From: Synechococcus sp. KORDI-49
Lineage (GTDB): Bacteria; Cyanobacteriota; Cyanobacteriia; PCC-6307; Cyanobiaceae
DNA: 64,000 nucleotides
Direction of reading: 5' to 3'
Assembly (NCBI RefSeq): GCF_000737575.1
Contig: NZ_CP006270.1
Span: 313,163 to 377,162 of the forward strand
In this document: in pieces, positions 38,814 to 64,000 of the stretch
Layout: each line of letters begins with the position of its first letter
How positions within the stretch are numbered: position 1 is the stretch's first letter
Program-made: the position numbers and the translations under genes
Notes under the pieces: generated by a model
Told to the model about the DNA's origin: nothing
Seen by the model: the letters and a program-made list of their open reading frames with translations, nothing else
Databases searched by the model: none

Positions 38814-40868
38814 TTGAAGCCAGCCATCCAGACAGACGCGATTGTCGGGCTCGTCCTCAGGGGACAGCCCCTGATCGGTCGTGTTCTGTCTTCCAGGGGC
38901 AGCCGAGCGAGTATCGGATTCGGCGGTCAGCGCCGCGACCAGGAACTGCCTCAGAGGGATCTGACGGTGATCGCAGGGCTGGAGCCGGCTGCATCCCGGC
39001 AGCCCCTGCCGACGCCTGAAGCCATTCAGGACTGTGGCGTCAGTGCGCGAGCCGTGGCGGAAACCTGGTGGTTGCTGATCAGCGATCACAACGGTTCTGA
39101 CGACGATCTGCCCTGCCTGTCCCTGGTGGAACTCGCCGATCTGGTGATGGCCTCCGTGACCCTGGCTTCCATAGCGGCGCTCTGGGACTGGTTGCATGGG
39201 CCGCAGCTGTGGTTTCGGCTGCGACGGGATCGTTCGCTGCAGGTGCGCCCACTCACGGAGATCCAGCGCCAGCGCGGCAGAAACAAGCAGCAGAGATTGC
39301 TGCTTCAACACCAGCAGCGGCAACTGGATCTGCTGCGTTCACCGCGACCGCTGACCACCGATCTGCGCGAACAGCTTGATCCGGAGTGGCGCAGAACTCT
39401 TGAACGACTGCAGGAGCTGGCGCTTGGAGATGAACGCCAGTTGCTCGCCGATGCGGATGCCTGCGAACAGATGCAGCAACTCTCGATCGAGGCATCGCGT
39501 CGCAGCCTGAGGCAGTGGCTGATGCAACGGGACCTGCTCGATCCGGATCAACCGGCAGGGCTGCGGGGGAGTGTCTGGTCGGCAACGTTCGAACCGGAGC
39601 TGCTGGAAGCGGCAGAAGACCTGAAACGGTGTTCGGAACGCCCTCAACCGGGGGATCCCATGCGTCTGGATCTCACCGATCATCGGGTTTACACGCTGGA
39701 TGACAGCGGCACACGCGAGATCGACGACGGCCTCTCCCTGATGCGCGATCCCCGGGGAGATTGGATCTGGATCCACATCGCTGATCCCGCACGGCTGATC
39801 GAAGCGGACAGCCCACTGGATCTGGAGGCAAGGCGCAGGGCCACAAGTCTCTATCTGGCGGAAGGGGTGCGACCGATGCTCCCTTTCAGCCTCGCCGCCG
39901 ACGTGCTGAGCCTGCGGGCCGGTCAGAGATGCGCTGCCCTGAGTGCCGGCGTTCGGCTCGACGCAGAGGGTGCGGTGCAGGAGAGCAGGATCTGCCGAAG
40001 CTGGGTCCGACCTCGCTACGGCCTCAGCTACGACGATGGTGATGAACTGATCGAACTGGCCCCGCCCGGGGATGAGGATCTTGCCGATCTCTCGCTGCTG
40101 TTGCGTCGTCGCCAGCAGTGGCGCGAACGTCAGGGGGCGATCGGATTCGATCGACCGGAAGGGCGGTTCCGACGTCTGGAGGATGGTCCGGCACTCCAGG
40201 TGATCGAACCAACGGCCGCCAGACGGATGGTCAGCGAAGCGATGCTGCTGATGGGGGCCGTGGTGGCTGATTTCGGTGTGCGACACGATCTGGCACTGCC
40301 CTTCCGCAGTCAACCTCCGGCAGAGCTGCCTTCGCCGGCCGAGCTGCAGGCACTTCCCGAGGGGCCGGCCCGTGATGCTGCGATCAAGCGCTGTCTCAGC
40401 CGTGGCGTCCAGGGCACCACCCCAATGCCCCATTTCAGTCTCGGCCTGGCCAGTTACGTCCAGGCCACCTCCCCGATCCGGCGCTACGCGGATCTGCTCA
40501 GCCACAGACAGCTCATCGCCAACCTTGAAGGCCAGACACCGCTCGACAAGGACCGGATCGGTGAGCTGATCGGGGATCTGGACTCACCGTTGCGACAGGG
40601 GATTCAGATCAGTCGGGAGGACCAGCGTCACTGGCAGCAGGTCTGGCTGAGCATGCATCGCGAGCAGACCTGGAGAGCGCTCTTCCTGCGCTGGCTGCGG
40701 CCCCAGGATCGATTGGCGCTGGTGCATGTCGCGGACCTGGCGATGGATCTGGTGGGTGTGGCGGAAGGGGTCGATCCCAACCCGGGGCAGTCTCTGCAGA
40801 TGCGGATCCAGCATGTGGATGCGGATCAGGGCGAGCTGCGCATTCAGCTGGAGGCATCGAGCACCTGA
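38814..40868 (+). CDS. Exoribonuclease II/R family (RNB domain), catalytic site intact
   Basis: 684 residues. An N-terminal cold-shock-like part (VGLVLRGQPLIGRVLSSRGSRASIGFGG) and a long helical region precede the RNB domain. Catalytic motifs are intact: LDDSGTREIDDGLSL carries the acidic metal ligands, WIHIADPARLI follows, and YVQATSPIRRYADLLSHRQL has the arginine motif. An S1-like end (LALVHVADLAMDLVGVAEGVDPNPGQ) completes it. The build resembles the cyanobacterial and plastid RNR1 type, a 3'-5' exonuclease of mRNA and rRNA. TTG 38814 start; the 3' end overlaps the flavoprotein gene by 25 bases. Confidence 0.92.
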   Translation: MKPAIQTDAIVGLVLRGQPLIGRVLSSRGSRASIGFGGQRRDQELPQRDLTVIAGLEPAASRQPLPTPEAIQDCGVSARAVAETWWLLISDHNGSDDDLPCLSLVELADLVMASVTLASIAALWDWLHGPQLWFRLRRDRSLQVRPLTEIQRQRGRNKQQRLLLQHQQRQLDLLRSPRPLTTDLREQLDPEWRRTLERLQELALGDERQLLADADACEQMQQLSIEASRRSLRQWLMQRDLLDPDQPAGLRGSVWSATFEPELLEAAEDLKRCSERPQPGDPMRLDLTDHRVYTLDDSGTREIDDGLSLMRDPRGDWIWIHIADPARLIEADSPLDLEARRRATSLYLAEGVRPMLPFSLAADVLSLRAGQRCAALSAGVRLDAEGAVQESRICRSWVRPRYGLSYDDGDELIELAPPGDEDLADLSLLLRRRQQWRERQGAIGFDRPEGRFRRLEDGPALQVIEPTAARRMVSEAMLLMGAVVADFGVRHDLALPFRSQPPAELPSPAELQALPEGPARDAAIKRCLSRGVQGTTPMPHFSLGLASYVQATSPIRRYADLLSHRQLIANLEGQTPLDKDRIGELIGDLDSPLRQGIQISREDQRHWQQVWLSMHREQTWRALFLRWLRPQDRLALVHVADLAMDLVGVAEGVDPNPGQSLQMRIQHVDADQGELRIQLEASST

Positions 40869-60766: not shown

Positions 60767-61141
60767 ATGAACGGGGTGCTCGGGAGCTGGACCTGCATCA
60801 GCCAGTGCGGAGCGTGCTGCCGGCTCTGCCCGGAGGAACGGGGCGAGGCGCTTGAGGCCCTCAGTGAGGATCAACGCCGTGACTATCTGTCGATGGTGGG
60901 GCCGGATGGCTGGTGCATCAACTACGACAGCGGCGGCCGCCGTTGTCGCATCTATGAGACGCGACCGGACTTCTGCCGGGTCCAGCAGCTCGGAAGCCTG
61001 TTCGATGTGAGCGACTCCGACCTCGAGGAGTTCGCGGTGAGCTGCTGCCGTCAGCAGATCCGATCCGTCTATGGAGGACGCAGCCGCGTCCTGCGTAGGT
61101 TCGACCGAGCCCTGCGCAGGTCCACCCCCGGCGATGACTGA
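60767..61141 (+). CDS. YkgJ-family Cys-rich (zinc/iron-binding) protein
   Basis: 124 residues. The cysteines follow the YkgJ/CxxxCxxCC pattern: WTCISQCGACCRLCPEE, WCINYDSGGRRCRIYETRPDFCR, and a late SCCRQQI. Family members are annotated as zinc- or Fe-S-cluster-binding and are uncharacterised. ATG 60767 is used (TTG 60746 is in frame). It overlaps the first UPF0016 gene by 8 bases, so it may be linked to manganese handling. Confidence 0.85.
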   Translation: MNGVLGSWTCISQCGACCRLCPEERGEALEALSEDQRRDYLSMVGPDGWCINYDSGGRRCRIYETRPDFCRVQQLGSLFDVSDSDLEEFAVSCCRQQIRSVYGGRSRVLRRFDRALRRSTPGDD

Positions 61142-61457
61142 GTCCGCTCGGCCCCCGTTTCTGACGGTTCTGATCAGCAGTTTCACCACGGTTTTCCTGG
61201 CGGAGCTCGGGGACAAGACGCAGCTGGCGACCCTGCTCCTCGCCGCTCAGTCAGGCTCGCCCTGGCTGGTCTTCCTCGGTGCTGCCCTGGCGCTCATCGC
61301 CTCCAGCCTCGTTGGGGTGCTGGTGGGCCAGTGGTTGTCCAAGGTGCTGCCTCCGGAACGGCTGGAACTGATGGCCGGCGTGCTGATGGTGAGCCTCGGC
61401 CTCTGGCTCGGTCTGCAGGCGGCACGGGCGCTGCTGATCACCCACCCCATGTTCTGA
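61134..61457 (+). CDS. UPF0016 (GDT1/Mnx-like) transporter half, first gene
   Basis: 107 residues with three hydrophobic helices and one ExGDKT motif, FLAELGDKTQLATLLLAA. The UPF0016 family includes yeast Gdt1, plant PAM71 and the Synechocystis manganese exporter Mnx; there the two halves are fused in one protein. Here the halves are two tandem genes 3 bases apart, so the transporter is probably a heteromer. Manganese export from the cytosol to the thylakoid lumen or periplasm is inferred from the family. Confidence 0.86.
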   Translation: MTESARPPFLTVLISSFTTVFLAELGDKTQLATLLLAAQSGSPWLVFLGAALALIASSLVGVLVGQWLSKVLPPERLELMAGVLMVSLGLWLGLQAARALLITHPMF

Positions 61458-61460
61458 GTC

Positions 61461-61778
61461 ATGGACCTCGCGCTGCTGCTGTCCACCTTCGTGACGGTCT
61501 TCCTGGCGGAGCTGGGGGACAAGACCCAGTTGGCCACCGTGGCGCTCAGTGGAACCTCCGACCGTCCGTTCGCCGTCTTCCTGGGATCGTCGTCCGCCCT
61601 TGTGCTGGCCAGCCTTCTCGGGGCTCTGGCGGGAGGGTCGATGGCGAGCATGATCCCCGCTGATCTGCTGCAGCTGGCTGCCTCCATCGGCTTCCTGGTG
61701 ATCGGAACCCGTCTGCTCTGGCCAGCACTTCGCGGCGCAAACCTGCTGGAGGAGAAGGAGGGACCCGCCGACTCCTAA
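61461..61778 (+). CDS. UPF0016 (GDT1/Mnx-like) transporter half, second gene
   Basis: 105 residues with its own motif, FVTVFLAELGDKTQLATVAL, and helices FAVFLGSSSALVLASLLGALAGG and LLQLAASIGFLVIGTRLLW. It follows the first half after 3 bases. A charged tail (LEEKEGPADS) ends it. The first half alone has one motif, so both are needed for the usual two-motif site. Confidence 0.86.
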   Translation: MDLALLLSTFVTVFLAELGDKTQLATVALSGTSDRPFAVFLGSSSALVLASLLGALAGGSMASMIPADLLQLAASIGFLVIGTRLLWPALRGANLLEEKEGPADS

Positions 61779-61879: not shown

Positions 61880-64000
61880 ATGAAGTTCACGGTCGCCGAC
61901 CTGCTCGATCAACTGTCCATCGATGCAGCGGTCGAGCCACCGAAGCTGGCCAAGAGCCTCAAGCTCACCAAGCAGAGCGAGAAGCAGTGCCTGGATCTGG
62001 CCCTCGACGCCCTCGGCAGGATCGGGGTGGTCGCGATCCAGGACGACGGTGGCGTCATCCGTTGTGAAAACGATCAGCTGATCGATGCCCGGCTTCGCTG
62101 CAGCAGCAAAGGCTTCTGCTTCGCCATCCGTCATGACGGCGGGGATGACATCTACATCCGCGACCATCAGCTCAATCACGCCTGGAACGGTGATCGCGTG
62201 CTGGTGCGAATCACCCGAGAAGGCGGGCGACGACGATCACCGGAGGGAGGTGTTCAGTGCATCCTCGAACGCAGCACCACCTCGCTGCTGGCCCAGGTGG
62301 AACGTCAGGACGAGCAGCTGGTGGCCGTTCCCCTCGACGACCGGCTGCTGGCCAGCATTCAGTTGCCGAAAGAAGCTGGAGAGCATCTCCAGGAAGACAA
62401 ACCAACCTCTGTTGTGGAGGTTCAGGTCGATCGCTACCCGGTGGCTCAGCATGCGGCTATGGGTCATGTGGCGCGTCCGCTTCCCCTGAACGGGGGCCCT
62501 GCGGCCGATCGCGAACTGCTGCTCACCAAGGCAGGGCTGCATCACCGGCAGGCCGCGCCGCGTGGATCCGCCAAGGCTCCAACCACGAAGGGACGCACCG
62601 ATCTCAGTGATCAGCCCTGTCTGCTGCTGCGCAGCTGGTCCGTCGAGGACGCCCCCGGGCTGCCCGCCGTTCACGTCGAAGCCCATGAGGGCGGGAGCCG
62701 GCTCTGGGTGCATGCGCCCACGGTCGCCGAACGGATCGGCAGCGGAAACAGTCTGGATCTGTGGTTGCGCGATCAGGGGGAAGCTCTCTGCCTCGGGAAC
62801 GCCTGGCAACCGCTGCTCACGCCAGCACTCAGCAAGGCCGGAAGCTTCGTGTCAGGGGAAACGGCCGAAGCGATCACGGTGCGCCTCGATGTCTCCGCGA
62901 CGGGAGAGATCACGGACTGGACCTTCATGCTCAGCACCATCCGTCCGGCGGCGACGGTGTCCTCGGAGCAGATGAAGGCGCTGGCGGAGCGCAAGCCCAG
63001 AAGCCGCAGTCTCCCCACCGCGCTCAAGCCGATCAAGGACCACCTCGGACAGCTGGAGACACTGCAGTTCTGTGCCCGCTGTCTGATGGATCGCGAGCGT
63101 CAGGCCGGCGTGGTGCAACTGGATCTGCAGCTGCCGGAGATGGAAGCGCTCGGAGACCTGATCTGGGCCGATCCCACAGGGCTGCGGCATCGCTGGGTCG
63201 ATGCCATGGCTCCACAGGACCCACAGTCGCTGCTGCAGCCGCTGCTGCGTGCCGCCAACCGGGCCTGGGCACAGCATCGTGAGTCGCTTCAGCTGCCGGG
63301 CATCGTTCTGCAGAGCGGGGAACCGGATCCCGCTGTTCTGACGGATGTCGCGAAGACCGCGATTGCCCTCGATCTGCCGCTTGAACTCGATGAAGAGGGC
63401 AGCCCATCCGCTCAGGAACTGCTCGCAGGCTTCAGCGAGTCAGCCCATCGACGCGTGCTGGAGCAACAGCTCAGCCATGCCCTGCCGCAACCGGTGTTCG
63501 CCTTTGCCGGCCTGGCCCCGGTGCCGACGGAAGCCGAGGAATCCACCGCATCGGCCACCGGTGGCGAGAAGGCGACAGATCCTCTGGTCGCCGAGGTCCC
63601 GTGGTGCTGCGCAGGCCTCAGCTATGCCCACCTCGCCAACCAGCAGGTGCTGGTCAGCCTGCTCCAGGACGGCAAGGATCGGCCGACCGTGCGCCACAAG
63701 ACCCGTCTCACCCTCGGGGAACGCGGATGCGGCGAAGCGCTGAGCTGGCCTCTGTTCACAGCGTCCCAGGAGGAGAAACTGCAGGGGATCTGCACGGAAC
63801 GCTTCGTTCAGAGACTGAACAGCCGCCGTCGTCAGATTCATGAGCTTGAACGGGATCTGGTGACCATGGTTCAGGCGCGGTCCGCCGAGCCGCTGGTGGA
63901 CAGCGAAACCGAAGGCCGAATCAGTGGTGTTCAGAGCTACGGATTCTTTGTCGAGGTGGGGCCGACACGGGTTGAAGGGCTCGTGCACGTCAGCTCCCTG
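61880..64000 (+). CDS. RNase R-like RNB protein with an eroded catalytic site (3' end beyond window)
   Basis: 707 codons are open to the right edge. Order: N-terminal helical (HTH-like) segment, a cold-shock OB fold (about 70-130: SSKGFCFAIRHDGGDDIYIRDHQLNHAWNGDRVLVRI), a second OB region, an RNB-like domain from about 245, and an S1 domain beginning at 679 (GRISGVQSYGFFVEVGPTRVEGLVHV). RNase R has EDARDFDDAV with three catalytic Asp; here E256-D257-A is followed by PGLPAV. The alignable LWVH (275-278) lacks IAD. SYAH (581-584) is followed by LANQQVLVSLL in place of the TSPIRRY-type segment. An acidic nuclease centre is therefore missing. Probably RNA-binding without nuclease activity. Confidence 0.85.
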   Translation, partial: MKFTVADLLDQLSIDAAVEPPKLAKSLKLTKQSEKQCLDLALDALGRIGVVAIQDDGGVIRCENDQLIDARLRCSSKGFCFAIRHDGGDDIYIRDHQLNHAWNGDRVLVRITREGGRRRSPEGGVQCILERSTTSLLAQVERQDEQLVAVPLDDRLLASIQLPKEAGEHLQEDKPTSVVEVQVDRYPVAQHAAMGHVARPLPLNGGPAADRELLLTKAGLHHRQAAPRGSAKAPTTKGRTDLSDQPCLLLRSWSVEDAPGLPAVHVEAHEGGSRLWVHAPTVAERIGSGNSLDLWLRDQGEALCLGNAWQPLLTPALSKAGSFVSGETAEAITVRLDVSATGEITDWTFMLSTIRPAATVSSEQMKALAERKPRSRSLPTALKPIKDHLGQLETLQFCARCLMDRERQAGVVQLDLQLPEMEALGDLIWADPTGLRHRWVDAMAPQDPQSLLQPLLRAANRAWAQHRESLQLPGIVLQSGEPDPAVLTDVAKTAIALDLPLELDEEGSPSAQELLAGFSESAHRRVLEQQLSHALPQPVFAFAGLAPVPTEAEESTASATGGEKATDPLVAEVPWCCAGLSYAHLANQQVLVSLLQDGKDRPTVRHKTRLTLGERGCGEALSWPLFTASQEEKLQGICTERFVQRLNSRRRQIHELERDLVTMVQARSAEPLVDSETEGRISGVQSYGFFVEVGPTRVEGLVHVSSL

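Follow-up and report, generated by a model that had tools for sequence, protein, structure and literature searches.

Zam of Synechococcus sp. KORDI-49, an RNB-family protein that has lost its nuclease site and is probably a redox-tuned regulator

The active site of the RNB family is described as "essentially invariant" across life (PMC9145284), and in RNase II it consists of four aspartates and Arg500, among which D209, equivalent to RNase R D280, matters most for activity but not for RNA binding (PMC3293843). Within the RNase II/R family, the cyanobacterial Zam proteins, including sll1910 of Synechocystis PCC 6803 and A1543 of Synechococcus PCC 7002, make up a clade whose active site is degenerate (Thomas et al. 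2022, PMC9145284). Deletion of zam changes phycocyanin and photosystem ratios, Zam has two redox-active cysteines in the first cold-shock domain (CSD1), and it has been proposed to interact with RNase E under redox control (PMC9145284). Redox-dependent function in vivo is published for PCC 7002 only, in which zam Cys-to-Ser mutants behave like the deletion; the purified PCC 7002 protein showed no nuclease activity and no RNA binding either, and it was prone to aggregation (PMC9145284). Loss of the nuclease site and the presence of two redox-sensitive cysteines, which are central to what we describe here, are thus already known from that 2022 study.

We analyzed a 64,000-nucleotide stretch (the window) of the Synechococcus sp. 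KORDI-49 genome, a single 2.59 Mb contig that codes for exactly two RNB-family proteins (Table 1). The gene that runs off the end of the window is almost certainly zam. Its frame remains open for 779 codons, overshooting the window by 219 bases, and the complete protein matches the Pfam families OB_RNB, CSD2, RNB, and S1 in this order, bearing out the RNase R-like architecture proposed in a first-pass annotation of the sequence. In a quick tree the protein lies inside a single Zam clade (SH-aLRT support 98) and, within it, among the Cyanobiaceae (support 100); the clade is monophyletic, draws on many cyanobacterial families, and is separate from Rnb. The protein shares with the PCC 6803 and PCC 7002 Zams the CSD1-CSD2-RNB-S1 order, a degenerate RNB site, the two cysteines in the L12 loop of CSD1, and occurrence as a single copy beside an active Rnb, whereas the Cyanobiaceae proteins differ, the model sequences being compared by description, in that every trace of the site is gone.

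Table 1. Features of zam, its upstream neighbors, and its paralogue in the window
Feature	Coordinates	Strand	Basis and remarks
rnb, paralogue with catalytic motifs REIDDGL and TSPIRRYADL	38814..40868	+	Alignment
GDT1-family cation transporter half, upstream neighbor	61071..61457	+	PF01169; upstream of zam in 20/20 Cyanobiaceae loci compared
Second GDT1-family half, upstream neighbor	61461..61778	+	PF01169; locus comparison
zam	61880..64000, continuing to 64219 outside the window	+	Open reading frame in window and whole contig
First cold-shock (OB) domain, CSD1	62078..62272	+	Residues ~67-131; Pfam OB_RNB 71-126; dN/dS 0.014, 0.012
Cys74 codon, first of redox pair (C73 in PCC 7002)	62099..62101	+	Pair intact in 105/110 aligned rows; PMC9145284
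Cys80 codon, second of redox pair (C79 in PCC 7002)	62117..62119	+	Alignment; PMC9145284
RNB domain, PF00773	62594..63496	+	Residues 239-539, E 2.5e-38; recognizable without catalytic motifs
PGLPA for DFDDA (RNase R ligands D278, D280, D281)	62654..62668	+	Alignment with E. coli RNase R, RNase II, and Zams
HAPT for AIAD	62711..62722	+	Alignment
CCAGLSYAHL where TSPIRRYPDL decayed in place, with loss of the catalytic Arg	63605..63634	+	Alignment
S1 domain start, PF00575	63899..64000	+	Residues 674-753, E 9e-13 in full protein; end outside window

E. coli RNase R (rnr) has the same domain order, and RNase R structures are the best full-length PDB matches, but the KORDI-49 protein retains none of its four metal ligands and neither IAD nor TSPIRRY. 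The 707-aa part of the protein scores 144.1 bits against the NCBIfam RNase R model TIGR02063, for which the cut-off is 597.85, and the alignments lack the RNase R combination of four acidic ligands and a catalytic Arg. Pfam gave no match to the N-terminal PIN domain of Dis3/Rrp44. PADLOC gave no match, and a link of zam to defense systems was dropped. An AlphaFold model of the 706-aa window part, made with 33 Nostocales homologues, was poor (pLDDT 48.8, pTM 0.35) and so lends no structural support to the mechanism considered below.

When the protein is aligned with other Zams and with two E. coli enzymes, RNase R and RNase II, it has R, P, L, and P in the metal-ligand columns D272, D278, D280, and D281, so that none of the four is acidic. 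The first-pass annotation was exact in reading DFDDA as PGLPA, and it correctly saw that IAD is gone from the WVxIAD strand, which is now WVHAPT (APT for IAD). It erred in describing TSPIRRY as replaced after SYAH: this SYAH is not the one that stands ahead of FTSPIRRY in E. coli RNase R. LSYAHLANQQ aligns under RRYPDLTLHR, and TSPIRRYPDL has therefore decayed in place; relatives carry intermediates in this segment such as QRYIDLIIQR and HYADLWNQQ. No relocated acidic cluster, an arrangement that the annotation had raised as counterevidence, was seen around the four ligands in the alignment of the KORDI-49 protein. We conclude that this copy of Zam very probably does not hydrolyze RNA. We note separately that in one other Zam (L085) an aspartate sits one position off its ligand column.

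The paralogue rnb retains the TSPIRRYADL motif, as previously read, and three of the aspartates; where RNase R has D278, it carries Glu. The same Glu (xEIDDG) is common to the cyanobacterial Rnb proteins aligned. Rnb, of the RNase II type, belongs to the same RNB family and the same genome as Zam but is unlike it in keeping the catalytic motifs, in having no Pfam match for cold-shock domains, and in falling outside the Zam clade. The alignment, class-wide conservation, and PMC9145284 agree with the earlier suggestions that, of the two RNB paralogues in the cell, one is apparently active and the other apparently inactive, and that the inactive copy is kept as a non-nuclease RNA factor.

Absent motifs could also reflect a sequencing error or a pseudogene, and in a related-class genome (G104) zam is indeed split in two frames. 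However, the KORDI-49 frame is full length, its replacements are common to genus members at 65-71% identity, and its dN/dS is 0.09; the shared replacements and purifying selection rule this explanation out, leaving it a vanishingly small chance. The loss is likewise common to orthologues more widely, with none of 212 distinct Zam sequences having all four ligand aspartates. The gene itself is present in essentially all cyanobacteria, including all 83 good-quality class genomes in the set of relatives and all 202 good genomes of the Nostocaceae type. By comparison, none of 19 same-phylum genomes outside the class has a full-length match; seven have a match, chiefly to the RNB region.

As an addition to the published work, the decay of the site is graded in these sequences. 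Among the least decayed Zams are those of families f12, f18, and f24, which keep D272, D280, and D281 together with IAD or ISD and SPxRRYPDL, and a single Zam (L272), which keeps D278, D280, D281, IAD, and SPLRRY and lacks only D272, making it a good candidate for residual activity. Most of the best-scoring Zams, many of them in family f15, have both D280 and D281 and are otherwise intact. Glu-Asn replaces D280/D281 in all 80 Nostocales proteins, and the Nostocales Zams keep RRYPDL. At the opposite extreme, the Cyanobiaceae proteins keep nothing of the site. It is conceivable, given this series and the RNase activity reported for Alr1240 (below), that Zam is still a weak or specialized nuclease in some lineages, with gradual loss having run its full course in the Cyanobiaceae copies. 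We consider this unlikely, in that no Zam keeps all four ligands, the KORDI-49 protein has no remnant of the site, and purified PCC 7002 Zam was inactive, though aggregated (PMC9145284).

The strongest challenge to a dead enzyme comes from Anabaena, in which Alr1240 is reported to degrade unstructured RNA and also to bind RNase E at 1:1 and raise its activity (PMC10989914, a review). Alr1240 is probably the Zam of PCC 7120: it has been identified as such (PMC9145284), and the operon alr1240-alr1241-alr1242 (PMC10287535) fits the Nostocales gene order of zam, ubiX, and then a gene of ~220 aa. In that case, the RNase activity reported for it is at odds with calling Zam a dead enzyme. That activity would, however, come from a lineage with a Glu-Asn site, and either contamination with host RNase or true residual activity is a possible explanation; neither extends easily to the KORDI-49 protein because no remnant of the site is left in it. 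Nuclease activity in purified protein, named by the first-pass annotation as a finding that would tell against its reading, has divided support, the PCC 7002 protein being inactive and the probable Anabaena orthologue, with its less decayed site, being reported as active.

Selection bears on which parts of Zam are kept. Pairwise Nei-Gojobori dN/dS over 86 within-genus pairs has medians of 0.014 in CSD1, the most constrained part, 0.037 in S1, and 0.121 in RNB, against 0.089 for the protein as a whole. Across 12 genomes the RNB domain has a dN/dS of 0.122 in Zam versus 0.087 in Rnb, with 0.012 for CSD1 of Zam, and in 64 of 66 genome pairs the RNB-domain dN of Zam exceeds that of Rnb. The pairs are non-independent. 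Constraint on Zam is thus mainly in CSD1 and S1 and less in RNB, which is a further addition to the published description; such values are compatible with retention of the protein for its OB-folds and match the published conservation map (PMC9145284).

The cysteine pair is not intact in five of the 110 aligned rows. Ser replaces the first Cys in two of these (L076 and L082), Gly replaces the second in L096, and in two members of family f16 (L110 and L114) the loop RFSRGSFWA stands in place of the CSD1 redox loop RCSSKGFCFA, so that the pair is absent. The third f16 genome, G104 (L113), has the RFSRGSFWA loop too, in its split zam. These natural Zams show that the cysteine pair is not strictly invariant. 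Retention of zam in f16 without the pair, the strong constraint on CSD1 and S1, and the reported 1:1 binding and stimulation of RNase E by Alr1240 would all suit a protein that is mainly a structural RNase E partner, a degradosome scaffold in which redox control is minor or absent. This is a doubtful alternative, with the pair preserved in almost all rows and the PCC 7002 Cys-to-Ser mutants resembling the deletion (PMC9145284).

Most likely, Zam is a redox-tuned regulator that binds RNA or RNase E and is not a nuclease. In such a mechanism the RNB domain would be a scaffold holding the OB-folds, and Cys74 and Cys80 would switch between the thiol and disulfide forms as the cellular redox state changes, altering the binding of Zam to RNA and/or RNase E. 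As judged from the published orthologues, this change in binding would tune RNA turnover, and Rnb would then be the sole RNB exonuclease of the cell. The failure of purified PCC 7002 Zam to bind RNA counts against this mechanism, as do the reported RNase activity of Alr1240 and the natural Cys-less Zams, and we regard the redox and RNase E part as evenly poised. The statement as a whole, that the gene is zam and that its product does not hydrolyze RNA and is a redox-tuned regulator binding RNA and/or RNase E, seems to us somewhat favored over its negation.

Just outside the window, ubiX (64222-64830; L003:9385-9993) starts 2 bases past the zam stop and codes for a flavin prenyltransferase, scoring over the cut-off of TIGR00421. 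It is the same-strand downstream neighbor of zam in 29 of 29 loci of the genus, 18 of 20 other Cyanobiaceae loci, 18 of 39 loci of other families with enough flank, and 77 of 77 Nostocales loci with enough flank, and in most of the other-family loci no other tested neighbor of zam is kept. This adjacency in many cyanobacterial families is also added here, a limited literature search having turned up no apparent paper linking zam with ubiX. Many Cyanobiaceae, as well as family f11, have acsF further downstream. We note that 13 loci, L084-L093 and others outside the Cyanobiaceae, have a same-strand gene upstream of zam that looks PhoU-like by eye. Through ubiX, zam may be tied to quinone supply. 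A more far-reaching and rather improbable idea is that Zam and UbiX are an old pair in which a redox-sensing regulator of RNA turnover is expressed together with the flavin prenyltransferase for quinone synthesis, which would make RNA decay follow the quinone pool, either its supply or its state, with the catalysis of Zam having faded by lineage and some copies still active.

In oxygenic phototrophs, a nuclease family with a near-invariant active site (PMC9145284) includes a degenerate branch that spans the class. The graded series from three of four ligands to none makes the shift from enzyme to binding protein testable on natural variants, and the published redox and RNase E models can be tested directly with natural Zams that lack the cysteine pair and through the conflicting evidence on Alr1240 activity.
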